The notes under the pieces: model-generated
Databases searched by the model: none
What the model saw: the letters and a program-made list of their open reading frames with translations, nothing else
What the model was told of the DNA's origin: nothing
Assembly (NCBI GenBank): GCA_026713825.1
Contig: JAPONS010000033.1
Span: 1-63,254 of the forward strand
Source of the DNA: Chloroflexota bacterium
GTDB lineage: Bacteria > Chloroflexota > Dehalococcoidia > Lucifugimonadales > UBA1127
Length of the DNA: 63,254 bases
Direction of reading: 5' to 3'
Position numbers and translations under genes: made by a program
In this document: piece by piece, positions 278 to 59,749 of the stretch
Layout of the letters: each line of letters starts with the position of its first letter
Numbering within the stretch: position 1 is the stretch's first letter

Positions 278-1567
278 TTATGCTGGCGCCAAATCCTTCA
301 GCGCTTCCTGCAAGACCTGCATTGCCGGCTTGCCCTTCGGCGCCTGGACGGTACTCCTTCGCACCTTGAAGAGCTCCGGCCGGTGGGGTGCCGCCGGTTC
401 CTGCCCTTCCTGCAGGTCCCGGGCCGCCTTGATGAGCTGGTGCCGGATATGGATGTTCAGCGTGTCCTGGCTCGTCAGCCGTTCCCGCGTCCGGTCCATG
501 ATTGGCCCGCCCTGGTCCTCGATCTGGCAGATGTCCTGCAGCGGGAAGTTGTTGATGCCCGAGTAGTTGTAGTCTCGCTGCATTTCCCGGTCGACCAGGT
601 AGTCGTTGGCCTTGTTGGCGACCGGCTTGTACGTTCCCGGGATCTTCTCCGGCACCAGCCACGCGTTGTGCGCCTCCCGGAACTCCTCCAGCAGCGGCTC
701 GTACGGGTTCCACCGCACCCGCAGCACCATGCACGTCACATCGTCGATCGGCACGCGCATCCGCTGATACCCGAGGGGGAACTTACCCCCTCCGAGGTTG
801 TTGTATGAGGGCGAGGGGTCAAAGTTCGGAATGATGAAGTGGTCGATGCTGACCCGCTGCTCTTCTTCTTCGTTGTTCCACACCGTGGCGAAGCTGATGC
901 CGAACTCCGTGTCGACGACAGCCGCCGGCAACCGCACGCGTGAAATGGCGCTGCCGCTGTTGAGCCCCATCTGGACGCCCGGCCCACCCTCGGTCTTGTC
1001 CCGGAAGCCGTGGGTGAAATAGAGGTGGCTCGGGTCGTTCTGCCCTTCCATCGACTGGAGCCAGTTGCACTCGCAGACGATCTTCCAGTTCTCCCGGTGG
1101 CTCTCCGGGATCGCCGCAAAGTCGAAGTCCGGGAACGGCGGCTGCAGCTCTGCAGGCCCCATGTACGCCCAGATGAACCCACCCTTGTCCAGCGCCGGGT
1201 AGGACTTGAGCTTGATCTTGCTCTTGAAGGACTCGCCCTCAGGGATGAAGGGGATGTCCACGCACTGTCCCGTGTAGTCGTACTTCCAGCCGTGGTACAG
1301 GCACCGCAGCCCGCTCTCCTCGTTCATCCCGAAGAACAGCGGCGAGAACCGGTGGGCGCAGTAGGCGTCGATGATGCCCACGTTGCCGTCGCTGTCCCTG
1401 AACGCGATGAGGTCTTCGTTCAGAACGCGCAGGCGCGCGGGCGTGCAGTCGGGTTCCGGGATCTCCTCCGACAGCATCACCGGCGTCCAGAAACGGCGGA
1501 AAAACTCGCCCATCGGGGTCCCGGGCCCCGTCCTGGTCAACAGTTCATTCTCTTCCTGGGTAAGCAT
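278..1567 (-). CDS. Rieske (2Fe-2S) aromatic ring-hydroxylating oxygenase, alpha subunit
   Basis: Catalytic subunit of a Rieske non-haem iron oxygenase, 429 residues, cytoplasmic. The Rieske cluster ligands are C70, H72, C89 and H92 (CxH, 16 residues, CxxH). The mononuclear iron site is D178-x2-H181-x4-H186 in a Gln-Asn-Asp-Pro-Ser-His context. The overall arrangement resembles phthalate 4,5-dioxygenase-like oxygenases. The ATG is preceded by GGGAGGAAGG at good spacing. No reductase or ferredoxin gene is nearby, so electrons must come from elsewhere. It is divergent from an MFS transporter at 1834 that may carry a related substrate (inference). The substrate cannot be read from sequence. Confidence 0.93.
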   Translation of the reverse strand: MLTQEENELLTRTGPGTPMGEFFRRFWTPVMLSEEIPEPDCTPARLRVLNEDLIAFRDSDGNVGIIDAYCAHRFSPLFFGMNEESGLRCLYHGWKYDYTGQCVDIPFIPEGESFKSKIKLKSYPALDKGGFIWAYMGPAELQPPFPDFDFAAIPESHRENWKIVCECNWLQSMEGQNDPSHLYFTHGFRDKTEGGPGVQMGLNSGSAISRVRLPAAVVDTEFGISFATVWNNEEEEQRVSIDHFIIPNFDPSPSYNNLGGGKFPLGYQRMRVPIDDVTCMVLRVRWNPYEPLLEEFREAHNAWLVPEKIPGTYKPVANKANDYLVDREMQRDYNYSGINNFPLQDICQIEDQGGPIMDRTRERLTSQDTLNIHIRHQLIKAARDLQEGQEPAAPHRPELFKVRRSTVQAPKGKPAMQVLQEALKDLAPA

Positions 1568-3150: not shown

Positions 3151-4671
3151 CTACATGAGCCCAAGCACCTCGATCCGCGGGTAGCCGTTGCCGCCGAGGT
3201 TGGTCTCGAGGATGTGGAGCACCGGCGGCGCCTGCCCTGTCGGCGTCAGCGCCAGCATCTCGCGCTGCACGTCCGCTCCAAATGCCGCGTCTCCCACGAA
3301 CGCCGTCACCTGCGTTACGTTCGCGAAGCTGCCTCCGCCGTCGCGGAACATGGCATCCACGTTCGCGAAGACCATCGCCGTCTGCTCGGCGAGCCCGCCC
3401 TCGCGGCTGCCCGTCACCACGCGCGACGACGTCACGAGGCTGCCCGTCAGCGCGCCCATGGACATGGGGTCATTGTGGACGACGCCGGGCACCTCCAGGC
3501 ACTTCCTCGGGCCCGCACCCACCAGCGCGATCACGTTCGCGGCCATGAGCACGCCCGACGGGAGGGCGCTGGGCACGTACTTGTGCGGAGGACGGTCGTC
3601 GGGGTCCGGGTACCACTCCATCCACGGCGGATTGAACTTCAGCCGCTCCGACAACTCCGGCAGGAAGTGGGTGAAGCGTGCCATGTCGTCCAGCCCCAGT
3701 CCGTTGACGCTCAGGAAACGCTCCACCTGGCCAAACATCGCGGCAAGCTGGCCGTCGAAGTCCGGGGCGGCCAGCGCGCCGCTGCACGGGTCGACGGGCT
3801 CCAGCAACGGCGCAACGACGACGTCCCCGATGCGCGCGCCGGACGGCTTGGCGTTGCCCTCCTCGCACGAGTAAACCTCGACGAACGGCTCGCCGGACGG
3901 CCCGCCGATGTCCGGCAGCATCGCCATCATCTCGATGGCGATGCTCATCCGCGACGAGACGACGTTCACGAGCTGGTGCAAGACGGGCCGCGTCGCCGGG
4001 TCGGGGAAGCGCTCCTCGAAGATGCGGCGAGCGACCTCCTTGTACGAGTCGTCGCGGCCGAACATGTTGATCTGGACGATGTTGTCCACGCTTCCGCCGG
4101 CCAGCCCCACCAGCGTCGTCAGGTTCTCGAGCGTCTGGCGCGCCTCCGCCTCCACGCCGCCCTCGACGATCTCCCCCGTCGTCTGGTCGTTGCCGTGGCA
4201 GCGCGACGTGAAGTAGACGTTGCCCACCACCACGCCGGGGTCGCGGGCGTGGACGTTGGGGATGTCGATGCGCGTCCGCTTGCCGCCAACGAGCCCGTAG
4301 GCGTCCAGGTGCACCAGATGCCCCTCCGGCAGCGGAGAGATAAGCGCCTTGAGCGCGGGGCGGTCCGCCGCGTCCGGGAAGAGGTTCTCCCACGGCCCGT
4401 AGATGGTCTCGCGGTCCTCCATGTCGGTCACGTACGCTGCGCAGCGCACGACGCCGTCGAGGTTGCCGCCCGCCGACTCCATCAGCCGCCGCAGGTGCGA
4501 GAGGATGACCCACATCTGCGCCTCGATGCCCGCAGCGGGTGCGCCGGTGACCGGGTCGACGCCCGCCAGCCCGTTCGCGTAGACGACGTCGTTGATGCGC
4601 ATGCCCAGGGGCCTCGTCGCCCGCGTGTCGGCGGGGTAGATCTCGAAGAACTGCCGGAGTTGCTCAGCCAT
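3151..4671 (-). CDS. Four tandem RidA/YjgF-type domains in one polypeptide
   Basis: A 506-residue protein made of four consecutive RidA (YjgF/YER057c/UK114) domains, at about residues 1-128, 132-253, 262-386 and 391-506. Single RidA proteins are about 130 residues and work as trimers. Each unit shows the pattern of a conserved strand near RP, followed by a hydrophobic strand ending in a small or acidic residue (DRPALKALIS, TRPVLHQLVN, DRPPHKYVPS, APPVLHILET). The arginine that follows RPA in deaminating RidA enzymes is Leu, Leu, His and Leu here, so imine deaminase activity is doubtful. The ATG at 4671 overlaps the stop of the upstream two-domain gene by 8 bases (ATGGCTGA), so the pair is translationally coupled. 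Confidence 0.85.
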   Translation of the reverse strand: MAEQLRQFFEIYPADTRATRPLGMRINDVVYANGLAGVDPVTGAPAAGIEAQMWVILSHLRRLMESAGGNLDGVVRCAAYVTDMEDRETIYGPWENLFPDAADRPALKALISPLPEGHLVHLDAYGLVGGKRTRIDIPNVHARDPGVVVGNVYFTSRCHGNDQTTGEIVEGGVEAEARQTLENLTTLVGLAGGSVDNIVQINMFGRDDSYKEVARRIFEERFPDPATRPVLHQLVNVVSSRMSIAIEMMAMLPDIGGPSGEPFVEVYSCEEGNAKPSGARIGDVVVAPLLEPVDPCSGALAAPDFDGQLAAMFGQVERFLSVNGLGLDDMARFTHFLPELSERLKFNPPWMEWYPDPDDRPPHKYVPSALPSGVLMAANVIALVGAGPRKCLEVPGVVHNDPMSMGALTGSLVTSSRVVTGSREGGLAEQTAMVFANVDAMFRDGGGSFANVTQVTAFVGDAAFGADVQREMLALTPTGQAPPVLHILETNLGGNGYPRIEVLGLM

Positions 4672-5458
4672 CAGCAAGCCCCCTTGTACGGGTTTCCTCG
4701 TCGATTGACGCCAACACCTCGATCATCACCTGCAGCGCACCGCCGCCATAGCGCAGGTGGTGCAGCACGGGCCGCGTCGCCGCGTCCGGGTAGAGCTGCG
4801 TCCACCGGTCGGTGACCAGCGGCAGGTTCGCGGGGTCGGCGACGAATGCGCGTCCCTGCTTGACGTTGCTCCAGTCCATGCCGCCGGTTCTCAGCAGCGC
4901 CTCCGTGTTGCGGAACAGGTGCTCCGCCTGCGACTGCACGTCCTCCGGCGGCCGGCCCGTCGTCGGATCGTAGGGCAGCACGCGTGAGGAGAAGAGGTAG
5001 GGGCCCATCCGCACGCCGAGGGGGATGGGGTTGGTGTGTGCAACGCCCTCGACGCTGAGCGTCTGCCGCGAGTGTCCCAGCACCGCGAAATAGTCCATGT
5101 ACACCAGCATGTCGCCGGGGAGGTCGGCCGTCAGGAACTTGTACGTCGGGCGGTCGTTCTCGTCCGGGAAGGCGTCAACCCACGGCGGGTTCATGGCCTC
5201 CCGGTCACGGGCGAAGTCCTGGAAGTACATACTGACGTGGGCGATGTTGGCGCGGCTGCCGCCGGCGCTCTCGATGCTGCGGCGCATGTGCTCGTGGGCG
5301 AACCGGAGCTGCGCGTCGATGCCGTCGCCGAAGACGCCCGTGTCCGGGTCAGTGCCGACGATGCGGAAGCCGCGCACCAGGTCGCCGGAGCGCACTGCCA
5401 CGGGCAGCGGGCTGACGCCCTGGTCGCCGAAGACTTCTGTGAGCATGTCGTTGGCCAC
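4664..5458 (-). CDS. Two tandem RidA/YjgF-type domains
   Basis: A 264-residue protein with two RidA-like domains, about residues 8-128 and 134-255. As in the downstream four-domain gene, the catalytic arginine position is not conserved (RPTYKF and RPVLHH). The GTG start at 5458 has GAGG six bases upstream and lies one base after the stop of the GlcG/HbpS-like gene. An internal ATG at 5446 has no ribosome binding site. The three genes 5942-3151 therefore form one compact operon. The role is unknown; non-canonical Rid proteins are often found in catabolic clusters. Confidence 0.85.
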   Translation of the reverse strand: MANDMLTEVFGDQGVSPLPVAVRSGDLVRGFRIVGTDPDTGVFGDGIDAQLRFAHEHMRRSIESAGGSRANIAHVSMYFQDFARDREAMNPPWVDAFPDENDRPTYKFLTADLPGDMLVYMDYFAVLGHSRQTLSVEGVAHTNPIPLGVRMGPYLFSSRVLPYDPTTGRPPEDVQSQAEHLFRNTEALLRTGGMDWSNVKQGRAFVADPANLPLVTDRWTQLYPDAATRPVLHHLRYGGGALQVMIEVLASIDEETRTRGLADG

Positions 5459-5459
5459 G

Positions 5460-5942
5460 TTAGGCCTCGTACTCAGGCGTGTACCGGAACATGGACTCGG
5501 CATGCGTAAAACCCTCGCCGAGGGCCTGCAGGCCGATGGCGACGTAGTCCCAGTCGCCCCTGCCCTCGCCGCCGCCACCGCCCGCAACCGCGATGCCGCC
5601 GACCATCTTGCCGTCGTAGATGATGGCGTAGCCGCCGGGCAGCGTCGTGAGCATGGGGTCGTTCCAGTCGGCGGGCCCGCGGTGGCCCTCGGCCTGCTGG
5701 CGGTCCCAGAATGCGATGATGCCGCTGGTGTCCATGTCGAAGGAGGCCGCGCTGTAGGCCTTCCGCCACGCGGCCTTCATGAACCGGTACGGCCGCCCGT
5801 CCATGCGGCACCCCGCGATGAGGTCGCCGTGCTGGTCGACGATGGCGACGGCTAGCTGCGAGCCCCGCTCCTTGGCCTCCGCGATGACGGCCGCGATGAC
5901 CCGGTTCGCTTCATCCAGACCAAGCCGCTTCTCCACGAGCAT
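5460..5942 (-). CDS. GlcG/HbpS family protein
   Basis: A 160-residue protein of the GlcG/HbpS (DUF336) family. It has the typical N-terminal LGLDEANRVIAAVIAEA helix, the AVAIVDQHGDLIAG strand pair, and a glycine-rich loop (residues about 125-133) after VGGIAVAGG. Some family members bind haem and others are accessory genes in glycolate or catabolic operons. No signal peptide is seen, so it is likely cytoplasmic. GGAGG lies eight bases before the ATG. It is the first gene of the operon leading to the two RidA-fusion genes. Confidence 0.85.
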   Translation of the reverse strand: MLVEKRLGLDEANRVIAAVIAEAKERGSQLAVAIVDQHGDLIAGCRMDGRPYRFMKAAWRKAYSAASFDMDTSGIIAFWDRQQAEGHRGPADWNDPMLTTLPGGYAIIYDGKMVGGIAVAGGGGGEGRGDWDYVAIGLQALGEGFTHAESMFRYTPEYEA

Positions 5943-6084: not shown

Positions 6085-6109
6085 ATACCGGCGAATGCCG
6101 GTATCCAGA
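6085..6109. repeat. Dispersed hairpin repeat, copy 1
   Basis: ATACCGGC-GAAT-GCCGGTAT forms an 8-bp stem and is followed by CCAGA. A 22-base core differing by one base recurs at 63117-63138, and a related hairpin lies near 62336. It sits in the leader of the SDR gene. Confidence 0.7.
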
Positions 6110-6144
6110 GGGGCTGTGGCAAATCGACCGGAAAGGACTTGGAC

Positions 6145-6975
6145 ATGGACAAACCCCTGACCGGCAAGGTGGCGATGGTGACGGGCGGCTCCCGGGGCAT
6201 TGGGCGCGGCATCGCGCTCTGCCTCGCAGACGAGGGCGCGACGGTCATCGTGTGCGCCCGCAGCGACGACTCGGCCGCCAACCCCTACGGCTCCATCGAG
6301 CAGACGGTGCAGGAAGCGCGCGACCTGGGCGGCGAGGCGGTCGCGATGAAGCTCGACGTCACGGACGACGACGAGGTCCGGGATGTCGTCGAGCGCATCC
6401 AGCGCGACTTTGGCCGCATGGACATCGTGGTCAACAACGCCGCGCGCATGGGCCAGGGCGGCGGCGACTTCTGGGGCAGCTCGCCGGAGAACCTCGACGC
6501 CTACTACCGCACCAACGTCCGCGCGCCATACCTCATCACGACGCTGGTGGGGCCGCACATGGAGGAGCTGGGCGGCGGCGCCATCATCAACGTCACCTCG
6601 GCCGGGGCGAGCCTTCCCCCGCCGCCGGGGCCGGACTGGAAGCTCTCGCCCGGCCGGACGTACGTCGGCTACGGCATCACCAAGGCCGCGCTGAACCGAT
6701 GGGTCGCTGGCGTCGCGGGCGAACTGCGGCTGCGCAACATCGCTATCGTCGCCGTCGACCCTGGCCGGACGGTGGTAGAGCGCAACATCGTCAACCCCAT
6801 CGCCGGCGTCGACTACACCACGGCCAACTCGCCAGAGGTCACGGGCCGCGCCGTAGCCTACATCTGCCGCGACGCCATGGCCTACACTGGCCGCGTCATA
6901 GAGTCCAAAGCGCTCGTCGACGAGCACGGCATCACGATGACCGGCATCGTCCCGCGCAACGCCGCGCGGGCGTAG
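6145..6975 (+). CDS. Short-chain dehydrogenase/reductase
   Basis: A 276-residue NAD(P)-dependent oxidoreductase of the SDR superfamily. It has the Rossmann motif TGGSRGIG (13-20), NNAA (97-100), catalytic Ser152 and Y176-x3-K180. The ATG at 6145 is used because the SDR fold starts directly there and AAAGGA lies upstream; the open frame before it is a dispersed repeat. The insert with PPPPGPD before the active-site Tyr is longer than in minimal SDRs. It is divergent from the GlcG/RidA operon and may belong to the same catabolic locus. Confidence 0.9.
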   Translation: MDKPLTGKVAMVTGGSRGIGRGIALCLADEGATVIVCARSDDSAANPYGSIEQTVQEARDLGGEAVAMKLDVTDDDEVRDVVERIQRDFGRMDIVVNNAARMGQGGGDFWGSSPENLDAYYRTNVRAPYLITTLVGPHMEELGGGAIINVTSAGASLPPPPGPDWKLSPGRTYVGYGITKAALNRWVAGVAGELRLRNIAIVAVDPGRTVVERNIVNPIAGVDYTTANSPEVTGRAVAYICRDAMAYTGRVIESKALVDEHGITMTGIVPRNAARA

Positions 6976-43621: not shown

Positions 43622-44917
43622 CTACGCCGGCACGTACTCCGGCGTGTAGGGTGCGCCGTCGTACAGCTCGGACCAGAGGGCGTTACGCCACTCCGTTCCG
43701 AGGGGCAAGACCTTCTCAATTGGCCGAAGCTGGTGTGCGTTGCGGCCCAGTCCCGGCGGCGTCCCGCCGTCCTCGACGCGCCGTACGGCGTCGAGCAGGA
43801 TCTTGCGGGCCATGATGATGGCGCGGTCCGTGGTGCCCAAGTGCTCGCGGGTGCGGTCGCAGATGGGGCCCATGGTGTCCTGCACGGCGCGGTCCTGGGT
43901 GTTGGTGCCCGGGATGCCGGAGAAGGTCTGGGTACGCTGGACCTCACGGTCGATGAGGTAGTCGTTCTCTGCGCTGGCCCTCGATCTGAAGCCCGCTGCG
44001 ACGTCGATGTCTTTGCCGAACTCGTTCCCCGAGCCCGTCTGCCGCCGCTCCGACTCCGCCATCTCGTTGCCGTCGAAGCGGTAGCTGAAGTTCCACACCA
44101 TTGTGTTCTCGTCGTCGATGGGCACCCAGATGTGGCCGGAGGCCCGGCCGTGCCGCCGCTGGAGCTGCCCGCCCGGCCGCAGCTGGTAGAAGGGCGCGAT
44201 GTAGTGGTAGGCGCGGACGTAGTTGCCCTCGTCGTCGCTGACGGTGCGGATGCCGGCGTAGGTGTAGCCGTAGTCGGTCGGCGTGACCTCGACGTGGGCG
44301 GCCAGGGAGTTGGCGCGGGCCCGGTCCATGACGTCCGTGCCGGATCCCGCAAACCGACGGTGCAGGAAGTTGGTGTGCACCGAGTCGATTCCGCCCTCGA
44401 GACCCTGGAGCCAGTTGCAGCGCTGCACCACCTTGGTCGTGCCGCGGTGCAGCTCCGGCACCTGCGTCCACTCGAAGGCCGGCGGTTCCGGCTCCAGTTC
44501 CTTGGGGCCCATGTAGACCCAGACTATGCCGCCGAGCTCGGCGGTGGGGTACGCCGTGATCTTCACCTTGTCCCTGAAATTGCTCTCCACGGGTTCCGAG
44601 GGCATGTCGACACAGTCGCCGCGCACGTCGAACTTCCAGCCGTGGTAGACGCAGCGCAGCCCGCTCTCCTCGTTCCGGCCGAAGAAGAGGCTCGCCCGGC
44701 GGTGCGGGCAGTAGTTGTCGAGGATGCCAACGTCGCCGTCGGTGTCGCGGAATGCGACCAGGTCCTCGCCCAGCAGCCGCACACGGATGGGCGGGCAGTC
44801 GGGCTCAGGCAGCTCCCACGAGAGGACGGCGGGCATCCAGTAGCGGCGCATCACCGCGCCCATCGGCGTGCCCGGCCCGACGCGGGCCAGGGTCTCGTTT
44901 TCCTGAAACGTCAGCAT
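43622..44917 (-). CDS. Rieske (2Fe-2S) ring-hydroxylating oxygenase, alpha subunit
   Basis: A 431-residue oxygenase. The ligands fall at the same residue numbers as in the other copies: C70, H72, C89, H92 for the cluster and D178, H181, H186 for iron (GIDSVHTNFLH). It opens MLTFQENETLARVGPGTPMG. It is more diverged from the others in the C-terminal half (SGIPGTNTQDRAVQDTMGPICDRTREHLGTTD). It lies 79 bases downstream of an orphan family-5 binding protein gene on the same strand, so uptake and oxidation may be linked (inference). No electron-transfer partner is nearby. Confidence 0.92.
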   Translation of the reverse strand: MLTFQENETLARVGPGTPMGAVMRRYWMPAVLSWELPEPDCPPIRVRLLGEDLVAFRDTDGDVGILDNYCPHRRASLFFGRNEESGLRCVYHGWKFDVRGDCVDMPSEPVESNFRDKVKITAYPTAELGGIVWVYMGPKELEPEPPAFEWTQVPELHRGTTKVVQRCNWLQGLEGGIDSVHTNFLHRRFAGSGTDVMDRARANSLAAHVEVTPTDYGYTYAGIRTVSDDEGNYVRAYHYIAPFYQLRPGGQLQRRHGRASGHIWVPIDDENTMVWNFSYRFDGNEMAESERRQTGSGNEFGKDIDVAAGFRSRASAENDYLIDREVQRTQTFSGIPGTNTQDRAVQDTMGPICDRTREHLGTTDRAIIMARKILLDAVRRVEDGGTPPGLGRNAHQLRPIEKVLPLGTEWRNALWSELYDGAPYTPEYVPA

Positions 44918-53276: not shown

Positions 53277-53738
53277 ATGCAGGTCGAGGCAAAGATTGAG
53301 GAGCTGGGACTGACCCTGCCCACCCCCGGCACGCCCATGGGCAACTACGTCCCCGGCGTCCGCACCGGCAACCTGGTGTTCCTGAGCGGCGTCGGGCCCG
53401 GACAGGCCGGCGGCCAGCAGTGGTCGGGCAAGGTTGGCCGCGACTACACCACCGAAGAGGGTTACGAGGCCGCCCGCGGCTGCGCCCTGAACCTCCTCGG
53501 CAACCTGAAGAGCGTCATCGGCGACCTCGACAAGGTGACCCGCGTCCTCAAGGTGCTCGGCATGGTCAACGCCGACCCCGAGTTCACGTCGCCGCCCGCG
53601 GTCATCAACGGCTGCTCGGACCTGCTGGTGGAGCTCTTCGGCGAGCGCGGTCGCCACGCACGTTCCGCCGTCGGCATGGCCGCGCTCCCCAACGCCATCC
53701 CGGTCGAGATCGAGATGGTCGTGGAGGTCGAGGACTAG
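53277..53738 (+). CDS. RidA-family protein with canonical arginine
   Basis: A 153-residue single-domain RidA/YjgF protein. Unlike the six RidA domains at 3151-5458, it keeps the catalytic arginine: R129 in GRHARSAVGMAALPNAIPVEIE. It opens with a slightly longer N terminus (KIEELGLTLPTPGTPMGNYVPGVRTGNLVFLSG). It probably hydrolyses 2-aminoacrylate or a related imine. GAGGAGGA lies six bases before the ATG. It is followed by a TIM-barrel isomerase 22 bases downstream and likely cotranscribed. Confidence 0.9.
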   Translation: MQVEAKIEELGLTLPTPGTPMGNYVPGVRTGNLVFLSGVGPGQAGGQQWSGKVGRDYTTEEGYEAARGCALNLLGNLKSVIGDLDKVTRVLKVLGMVNADPEFTSPPAVINGCSDLLVELFGERGRHARSAVGMAALPNAIPVEIEMVVEVED

Positions 53739-57031: not shown

Positions 57032-57060
57032 TTGACATAGTCACCCCCAGTGCATACCAT
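57032..57060 (+). promoter_or_regulatory. Promoter of the tandem Rieske genes
   Basis: A perfect -35 TTGACA (57032-57037), 17-base spacer, and TACCAT (57055-57060; 4/6) as -10. The likely transcript start leaves a leader of about 45 bases before the ATG at 57113, with GAGG eight bases upstream of it. Confidence 0.75.
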
Positions 57061-57112
57061 CCCGAAAATCGCCGTATTTGTACCTTCTCAACAACAGAAA
57101 GAGGGAAGCACC

Positions 57113-58414
57113 ATGCTCAGTCAGCAGGAAAACGAGTACCTCACGCATACCAACCGGGGCACCCCCATGGGCGAGCTCTTCCGCCGCTACTGGCAGCCCT
57201 TCCTCCTCTCGGACGAGTTGCCGGACAACGACGGCGCTCCCGTCCGCGTCAGACTCCTCGGCGAGGACCTCATCGCCTTCCGCGACTCCGATGGCCGCGT
57301 CGGCCTGGTCGCCGAGTCTTGCCCGCACCGCGGCGCCTCGCTCTTCTTCGCCATCAACCAGGAACGCGGCCTGATGTGCATCTACCACGGCTGGAAGTAC
57401 GACGTCGACGGCAACTGCGTCGACATGCCGTCAGACATGCCAGGCAGCGCCTTCAAGGAGAAGGTGCACCTCACCTCCTACCCCACCATCGAGTCGGCCC
57501 GCGTCATCTGGACCTACATGGGGCCGCCGGACAAGCAGCCGCCGCCGCCCAACTACTACATGAACATGCTCCCGGAGGAGAACGTCATCGCGCAGCGGAC
57601 GCCCATCTACTGCAACTACCTCCAGAGCATGGAGGGCAACCTCGACTCCACCCACCTCGGCACGCTGCACATGTACTACGACAACCTCATCCCCGCCGAC
57701 CTCGAGTACGACAAGCCGGGCCACCCGACGCCGCGCTTCTCGCAGTACATCACCGGCACCGAGAAGTACGCCCGCATCGACGTGCAGGACACCGACTACG
57801 GCTACCGGCTCATCGCCGTCCGCAAGACGCCCAACGGCAACCAGCACGTCCGCATCAACTGCCTCGCGCTGCCCATCATGTCGTGGATCGCCGCGCCGCG
57901 CGGCCTCGGCAGCATCTTCACGCAGCTCCCCATCGACGACTACAACTGCATGCGCATCGGCTGGCGCTGCAGCCCGGACCGCCCCTTCTCCCAGCAGGAC
58001 CGCACCAGCGCCGCCTCCCAGAGCATGATGATGGACCCCAACAACCCCAAGCTCCGGCTCAAGCGGCTCGACAACGACTACCTGCAGGACCGCGCCGCCC
58101 AGAAGTCCAAGCACCCGCCGGGCATCTGGCCGGGCGCCGAGCAGGACTACTGCGTCACCGAGACCATGGGCCCCATCTACGACCGCACCAAGGAGCACCT
58201 CTACCACGGCGACGCCGCCATCGTCCGGCTGCGCCAGATGCTCGGCAAGGCCTCTCGCGACCTCCAGGAGGGCATCGAGCCCCCGGGCGTCAACGGCGAG
58301 ATCGCCTACCACAAGATCCGCTCCGAGGACATCGTCATCGGCCCGGACGACGACCCGTGGCTCGTCGCCGCCGACGCCGGTGAGTCCGCAACGCGCGGCC
58401 AGCGGCTGCGCTAG
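57113..58414 (+). CDS. Rieske (2Fe-2S) ring-hydroxylating oxygenase, alpha subunit, tandem copy 1
   Basis: A 433-residue oxygenase. Cluster ligands are C70, H72, C89, H92 and the iron site is D178-x2-H181-x4-H186 in EGNLDSTHLGTLH. It opens MLSQQENEYLTHTNRGTPMG and is highly similar along its whole length to the next gene, 30 bases downstream, including the C-terminal ADAGESATRGQRLR. It belongs to a different branch from the copies at 278 and 43622, which have NDPSH and IDSVH iron-site contexts. Driven by the promoter at 57032. Confidence 0.93.
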   Translation: MLSQQENEYLTHTNRGTPMGELFRRYWQPFLLSDELPDNDGAPVRVRLLGEDLIAFRDSDGRVGLVAESCPHRGASLFFAINQERGLMCIYHGWKYDVDGNCVDMPSDMPGSAFKEKVHLTSYPTIESARVIWTYMGPPDKQPPPPNYYMNMLPEENVIAQRTPIYCNYLQSMEGNLDSTHLGTLHMYYDNLIPADLEYDKPGHPTPRFSQYITGTEKYARIDVQDTDYGYRLIAVRKTPNGNQHVRINCLALPIMSWIAAPRGLGSIFTQLPIDDYNCMRIGWRCSPDRPFSQQDRTSAASQSMMMDPNNPKLRLKRLDNDYLQDRAAQKSKHPPGIWPGAEQDYCVTETMGPIYDRTKEHLYHGDAAIVRLRQMLGKASRDLQEGIEPPGVNGEIAYHKIRSEDIVIGPDDDPWLVAADAGESATRGQRLR

Positions 58415-58444: not shown

Positions 58445-59749
58445 ATGCTCACTCAGCAGGAAAACGAGTTCCTGACGCAGACCGATCGCGGCACCCCGAT
58501 GGGGGAACTCTTCCGCCGCTACTGGCAGCCCTTCCTCCTCAAGGAAGAGTTGCCGGTGAACGACGGCGACCCCGTCCGCGTCCGCCTGCTCGGCGAGGAC
58601 CTGCTCGCGTTCCGCGACACTGAGGGCAAGGTCGGGCTAATCCAGGAGGCCTGCCCCCACAGGGGAGCCTCGCTCTACTACGGCCTCAACCAGGACTGCG
58701 GCATCATGTGCATCTACCACGGCTGGAAGTTCGATGTGGCGGGCGACTGCGTAGATATGCCCTCGGACATCCCCGGTAGCCGCTTCAAGGAGAAGGTGCA
58801 CATCACGTCCTACCCGACGCTGGAGTCGGCGGGCGCCATCTGGGCCTACCTTGGCCCGGCCGACAAGCAGCCCCCGCCCCCAAGCTACTGGATGAACCTG
58901 CTGCCGGAGGACGAGGTCGTCGCCAACCGCACGCCCATCTACTGCAACTACCTGCAGAGCATAGAGGGCAACCTCGACTCCACCCACCTCGGCACCCTGC
59001 ATCACTTCTACGACAATGAGATCCCGGAGGACCAGGAGTACGACAAGCCGGGCCACCCCAGCCGCCGGTTCTCCCAGTTCATCACGGGCACAGAGAAGTA
59101 CGCCCGCATCGACGTGCAGGACACCGACTACGGCTACCGGCTCATCGCCGTTCGCAAGACGCCCAAGGGCAACCAGCACGTGCGCATCAACTGCTTGGCG
59201 CTGCCGGTCATGTCGTGGATCGCCTCCCAGCGCGGCCTCGGCGGCATCCTCACGCAGCTCCCCATCGACGACCACAACTGCATGCGCATCGGCTTCCGTG
59301 TGCGTCCCGGCCAGCCCTTCACCGAGGAGGAGCGGCAAGCCATCCGGGAGGAGCGCAAGGCCCTCTTCGACCCCGTGGACCCGAAGCTGCGCCTCAAGCG
59401 CATGGACAACGAGTTCCTGCAGGATCGAGAGGCCCAGAGGGCGGTCCACCCGCCGGGCATCATGCCCATCGCGGAGCAGGACTACTGCGTTACGGAGACC
59501 ATGGGCCCCATCATGGACCGCACCAAGGAGCACCTCTACCACGGCGACGCCGCCATCGTCCGGCTGCGCCAGATGCTCGCCAAGGCCGCCCGCAACCTGC
59601 AGGAGGGCATCGAGCCCCCCGGCGTCCAGGGCGAGATTCCCTACCACAAGATCCGCTCCGAGGACATCGTCATCGGCCCCGACGACGACCCGTGGCTAGT
59701 CGCCGCCGACGCCGGCGAGACGGCAACCAGAGGCCAACGCCTGCGCTAG
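58445..59749 (+). CDS. Rieske (2Fe-2S) ring-hydroxylating oxygenase, alpha subunit, tandem copy 2
   Basis: A 434-residue oxygenase with all metal ligands at the same positions as its neighbour (C70, H72, C89, H92; D178, H181, H186). Differences cluster in residues about 295-320 (FTEEERQAIREERKALFDP versus FSQQDRTSAASQSMMMDP), a surface region that may set specificity. AGGAGG lies a few bases before the ATG. Being 30 bases behind the first copy, it is cotranscribed; together they may form a hetero- or homo-oligomer. Confidence 0.93.
   Translation: MLTQQENEFLTQTDRGTPMGELFRRYWQPFLLKEELPVNDGDPVRVRLLGEDLLAFRDTEGKVGLIQEACPHRGASLYYGLNQDCGIMCIYHGWKFDVAGDCVDMPSDIPGSRFKEKVHITSYPTLESAGAIWAYLGPADKQPPPPSYWMNLLPEDEVVANRTPIYCNYLQSIEGNLDSTHLGTLHHFYDNEIPEDQEYDKPGHPSRRFSQFITGTEKYARIDVQDTDYGYRLIAVRKTPKGNQHVRINCLALPVMSWIASQRGLGGILTQLPIDDHNCMRIGFRVRPGQPFTEEERQAIREERKALFDPVDPKLRLKRMDNEFLQDREAQRAVHPPGIMPIAEQDYCVTETMGPIMDRTKEHLYHGDAAIVRLRQMLAKAARNLQEGIEPPGVQGEIPYHKIRSEDIVIGPDDDPWLVAADAGETATRGQRLR

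Follow-up and report, generated by a model that had tools for sequence, protein, structure and literature searches.

The Rid oligomers described in the papers cited here are homotrimers or homohexamers, and among the described systems closest to the locus that we have analyzed are the 3x-RidA proteins, such as EF_0115, in which three RidA domains are carried on one chain that presumably forms a covalent trimer (Niehaus 2015, PMC4433059). Gene B, the subject of this study, shares with these proteins the tandem arrangement of RidA domains and a similar interdomain spacing but has four domains and a separate two-domain partner, gene A; neither chain contains exactly three domains, and whereas the three-domain chains found here in the Chloroflexota keep Arg105 in nearly all of their domains, A and B have it in none. 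Two- and four-domain Rid fusions also occur but are rare, and they were set aside undescribed by the same authors (Niehaus 2015, PMC4433059). The earlier note on this DNA had raised the question of whether four-unit fusions are known at all, and since rare examples were noted in 2015, the architecture is not a new kind; B is one instance, for which an origin, a partner, and a residue pattern are given here. Both gene products have the RidA domain of the Rid family (YjgF/YER057c/UK114, PF01042) by sequence and by fold, and all six of their domains lack both Arg105 and Glu120, by which the imine-hydrolyzing RidA/Rid1-Rid3 proteins are recognized. The Rid4-Rid7 proteins resemble A and B in lacking the catalytic arginine and in probably having no imine hydrolysis; they keep the glutamate, however (Niehaus 2015), whereas A and B are without Glu120 as well and do not have the pattern of absent Arg105 and retained Glu120.

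More-distant comparisons can be made with proteins that put the same fold to other uses. The 2-aminomuconate deaminase AmnE (6izh) has the RidA fold and six domains arranged in two trimers stacked on each other (PMC6742747), but its six subunits are identical single-domain chains that retain the cleft arginine (Arg117). The chorismatases FkbO/Hyg5 (4bps, 5ag3, and 5a3k) are multidomain chains with RidA-like domains and provide the best structural match to the two domains of A, but their identity is 13-17% and their chemistry is different. The gene directly upstream of A belongs to the family of DUF336/HbpS-like sensors, represented by HbpS, EfgA, and the C-terminal domain of PduO; the family includes the formaldehyde sensor EfgA together with heme and cobalamin binders, and the passages cited here describe no link between HbpS, EfgA, or the PduO C-terminal domain and multidomain RidA proteins (PMC8153426).

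The window, that is, the whole stretch of 63,254 nucleotides that was analyzed, contains the following features of the locus.

278..1567, minus strand: LigXa-type Rieske oxygenase, a probable pathway neighbor; relatives show the same combination
3151..4671, minus strand: gene B, 506 aa, four RidA domains in the order B1N, B1C, B2N, B2C
3889..3918 (approximate), minus strand: fusion junction between B1 and B2, LPDIGGPSGE, located by comparing the junction DNA with split relatives
About 4664..5446, minus strand: gene A, about 260 aa, two RidA domains (AN and AC)
5463..5942, minus strand: HbpS-like gene (PF03928/DUF336), 160 aa, ending 13 nt before A
6097..6975, plus strand: short-chain dehydrogenase, a divergent neighbor kept in the genus

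The reading frame of B runs on the minus strand from an ATG at 4671 to a stop at 3151-3153. The claim of the earlier note that it encodes four RidA domains in one chain was borne out by both profile searches: Pfam returned PF01042 in four stretches (E 5e-33 and 114 bits; cutoff, 27.3), and a Rid model built here gave four domains scoring 141, 126, 122, and 112 bits. Matches to NCBIfam TIGR00004 scored below that model's own cutoff. The full-length chain was also found in two other assemblies, at 94% identity in G695 (contig L044, OX638292, the single-contig chromosome of an uncultured member of the Dehalococcoidia) and at 89% identity in G529 (contig L045, JAPPNT010000071), so B arose from neither chance nor assembly error; in the order and class searched, fused B was confined to these two genomes and to that of the window (G000), and the contig scan gave no fused relatives beyond the window other than those two. 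Every domain of B is under purifying selection (dN about 0.01-0.09 and dS about 0.19-0.49), as is A, and part of one loop has been lost from B2C. In a search of annotated plasmids, none of 31 records covered 80% of B. Elsewhere in the genome that carries B, there is a pseudogene-like remnant of its last 56 residues (G000:C7:8498-8677, equivalent to L059:8498-8677, plus strand), 64% identical and with no other domains, and the window contains, at 53277-53738 on the plus strand, a single-domain RidA in which both the canonical Arg105 (RHARS) and the Glu are present.

Gene A, directly upstream of B on the same strand, went unnoticed in the earlier note, and the HbpS-like gene was likewise overlooked. 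Two RidA domains are assigned to A both by Pfam, as two PF01042 stretches, and by the Rid profile; its stop lies at 4664-4666, and its start, placed from relatives, would be the ATG at 5446. The stop of A and the start of B share 8 nt, ATGGCTGA, an overlap that is also present in both other fused genomes, and wherever A occurs, A, B1, and B2 adjoin. The HbpS-like gene matches PF03928 with 81.8 bits against a cutoff of 25, and the nearest solved relatives of its product are 4nkp and EfgA. The earlier note had seen a puzzle in a chain of four units that could not form a simple trimer, and this puzzle largely dissolves because the two domains of A bring the total to six (4 + 2, or 2 + 2 + 2 in relatives).

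The history of the locus can be read from genomes in which B is split. In two genomes of the genus, G514 and G447, and in one from a different family of the class, G298, A is followed by two adjacent two-domain open reading frames, B1 and B2. In the split genomes of the genus, B1 ends in TAA and B2 begins with ATG after a spacer that contains GGAGG; the fused genomes have CCG at the position of the TAA and lack 22-23 nt, among them the ribosome-binding site and the ATG. The fusion is recent, and the two independent assemblies together with the junction DNA rule out an assembly artifact. In a tree of 73 domains, whose 124 columns do not resolve the deeper branching or how the three-domain chains join it, AN, B1N, and B2N form one clade (99/94) and AC, B1C, and B2C form another (96/96); therefore, one two-domain N-C ancestor was triplicated to give the tandem paralogues A, B1, and B2, and B is the fusion of two of the three.

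The association of multidomain RidA proteins with HbpS-like proteins extends beyond this cluster. Of sixteen three-domain RidA chains in the phylum, fourteen have an HbpS-like domain adjacent or fused; Pfam identified a single chain with one HbpS and three RidA domains in G357 (L054:4476-6122) and another with two HbpS and three RidA domains in G038 (L051:6258-8342), and Arg105 is retained in 40 of the 42 domains of the fourteen HbpS-linked chains. In G013, a LigXa-type Rieske oxygenase, HbpS, and a three-domain RidA form a cluster on one strand with short gaps. The HbpS-like gene is directly upstream of A in the genome of the window and in G695, G529, and G298 (three copies in the last); it is about 1.4 kb from A in G447, with a Rieske gene between, and about 4.3 kb away in G514, and the G571 locus showed none near its RidA genes. 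The pairing of RidA with HbpS, by fusion and by adjacency elsewhere, is well supported. In G298, the three tandem HbpS-like genes are followed by three two-domain RidA genes and then by three small Rieske proteins (L049:7510-11323), so that the 3 + 3 counts are possibly matched. Two chains of 395 aa (L100:1671-2855 and L101:1566-2750), whose three RidA domains are very divergent and score 11-40 bits, are unlike the HbpS-linked chains. The rule that the RidA domains of a locus sum to three or six holds in the sampled HbpS-associated family, but it is broken by a lone two-domain RidA of another type in G571 (L098:1313-2125, on G571:C36), which lies away from the studied cluster and has by eye no arginine at the 105-like position; domain totals are thus not always a multiple of three.

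LigXa-type Rieske oxygenases lie near the cluster in the genome of the window, G514, and G447; open reading frames that begin like such oxygenases do so in G695, and the small Rieske proteins adjoin it in G298. The 20-kb contig of G529 showed no Rieske gene. Other neighbors of the cluster are SDRs and family-5 solute-binding proteins or Opp-type permeases. The window contains a second LigXa-type Rieske oxygenase at 43622-44917 (minus strand), and its open reading frames at 57050-58414 and 58445-59749 begin like one.

We infer that A and B most likely assemble and that their six RidA domains would then complete two rings of three domains each, which may be stacked, as in the AmnE hexamer, or separate. 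A and B overlap in translation, and this 8-nt overlap speaks for a partnership of the two chains, as does the adjacency of A, B1, and B2 wherever A occurs. The preferred division of the domains is {B1N, B1C, B2N} plus {B2C, AN, AC}. A model of A built from a nine-row alignment (pLDDT 82.5, pTM 0.82) places its N and C domains side by side, and both domains can be superposed on the chorismatase 5ag3 (Z 18.4 over 226 residues at 3.5 Å, with 13% identity). Structure prediction of B, which the earlier note had proposed for monomer and oligomers alike, was run on the monomer and yielded a poor, low-confidence model (pLDDT 59.7, pTM 0.46), in which B1N-B1C match the chorismatase 4bps (Z 16.9 over 218 residues at 3.3 Å); against RidA structures, the models of A and B give Z values of 16-18. 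The N-to-C spacing is 27-31 residues, about that of the three-domain chains (29-33), and the spacing from B1C to B2N in the fusion is 35. In G571, A is missing and B2 has been shortened to its N domain, which leaves B1N, B1C, and B2N, the three domains that a single ring of that composition would need; the locus in this genome may be in decay. The side-by-side models, the spacing, and the G571 remnant slightly favor the preferred division, a ring composition that rests on linkers and on models of single chains, for which prediction may itself favor side-by-side packing.

An alternative is a heterotrimer of two-domain units in which an N-ring (AN, B1N, and B2N) is stacked on a C-ring (AC, B1C, and B2C) and the fusion links two of the three subunits. 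Separate N and C clades would be expected of a two-domain homotrimer turned heteromeric by triplication, AmnE provides a precedent in the family for stacked double trimers, and three equal two-domain copies would fit these rings just as well as the preferred ones. Nevertheless, the models of A and B1 resemble chorismatase in the side-by-side placement of N and C, the N-C spacing equals that of three-domain chains, and the domains kept by G571 would leave open rings; we regard this arrangement as possible but on balance improbable.

The likely activity of the assembly was judged from its pocket residues, with E. coli RidA (1qu9, sequence verified) as the reference and the Arg105 column read from the alignment. 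The earlier note was right that B is without the canonical arginine: the column aligned with Arg105 reads L, L, H, and L in its four domains, and Y and L in A. Three of the motifs that it gave (RPAL, RPVL, and RPPH) are correct, and the fourth, which it had as RPV, reads PPVL (PPV). Arg105 and Glu120, the two key residues of the pocket between domains, are likewise absent from every A, B1, and B2 domain compared, in up to seven genomes, and of the other pocket residues conserved in the family (Tyr17, Gly31, Asn56, Asn88, and Pro114, besides Arg105 and Glu120 [Burman 2007, PMC1884159]), most have also been lost throughout the six domains of the locus. Arg occupies position 31 in 25 of 25 AN, AC, B1C, and B2C sequences; B1N has Gly or Ser there, and B2N varies. 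Position 106 is Lys in N-type domains and mostly His in C-type domains. A side chain at position 31 would clash above all with Glu120 (Burman 2007, PMC1884159), so that the loss of Glu120 and the gain of Arg31 are at least sterically compatible. Since Arg105 is essential for imine hydrolysis in the RidA proteins tested and Arg-to-Ala mutants are inactive (Niehaus 2015, PMC4433059), imine hydrolysis has probably been lost in the A/B assembly. The pockets seem to have been rebuilt around other conserved residues, notably Arg31, which may bind a ligand.

The same residues could be taken to indicate that the RidA fold of B has acquired a new enzymatic activity, Arg31 and Lys or His at position 106 having replaced Arg105 and Glu120 and the substrate being an intermediate of the Rieske pathway. 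The invariance of Arg31 in four domain types, the Lys or mostly His at position 106, and the operon-like context with a Rieske oxygenase, transporter proteins, and an SDR are in accord with this proposal, and chorismatase and 2-aminomuconate deaminase demonstrate that the fold supports other chemistry, but the domains present no recognizable known catalytic set, and we consider a new enzyme rather unlikely. It is very improbable that B alone is a conventional RidA-type deaminase working through some other residue: the RidA fold, membership of PF01042, and an E122-type acidic residue retained in most domains are set against the absence of Arg105 and Glu120 from six of six domains and the inactivity of Arg-to-Ala mutants of RidA (Niehaus 2015). 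That B is a decaying remnant, a chance fusion of functionless degenerate RidA copies, is scarcely credible, as the lost catalytic residues, the shortened B2C loop, and the true pseudogene fragment of B elsewhere in the genome are outweighed by dN/dS values that denote purifying selection in all four domains, by the presence of this fusion in two further genomes (94% and 89% identity), and by the conserved A/B overlap.

Our working reading of the locus is that a ligand-binding or scaffolding RidA assembly and an HbpS-like protein would act in an oxygenase-driven catabolic pathway, the ligand and the role being suggested by sequence and gene neighborhood. A ligand-binding or sensing role for B, which the earlier note had also thought possible, gains plausibility from the HbpS-like partner. 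The six-domain assembly, without imine deaminase activity, might, jointly with the HbpS-like protein encoded beside it, bind a small carboxylated or carbonyl metabolite or act as a scaffold, and the pathway would be fed by the LigXa-type Rieske oxygenase. We give an even chance of being correct to this explanation as a whole, namely, triplication and fusion leading to a heteromeric, six-domain, non-deaminase RidA that operates with HbpS in a Rieske pathway. A more specific proposal, which we would entertain without expecting it to hold, is that the locus encodes a RidA pseudoenzyme that is obligately heteromeric: the products of two or three genes would contribute six divergent domains to two rings that lack a classical active site and carry a new arginine at position 31, formerly glycine, and these rings would be stably bound to an HbpS-like sensor by which a reactive product of the Rieske oxygenase is handled or sensed.

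Our search, which covered open-access papers, turned up neither a RidA-HbpS pair with a name of its own nor any description of a four-domain Rid protein beyond the report of Niehaus (2015). Within that scope, the partner gene, the history of triplication and fusion, the complete disappearance of the pocket residues, and the association with HbpS appear to be undescribed. If paralogous two-domain units became mutually dependent and were then fused, with their catalytic residues lost along the way, the locus would be a clear case of evolution from homomer to heteromer and of pseudoenzyme formation. Rid proteins without the arginine have been called mysterious (Niehaus 2015, PMC4433059), and the repeated link between multidomain RidA and HbpS-like proteins, including outright fusion, offers a testable approach to the functions of the two partners as well as of these Arg-less members of the family.
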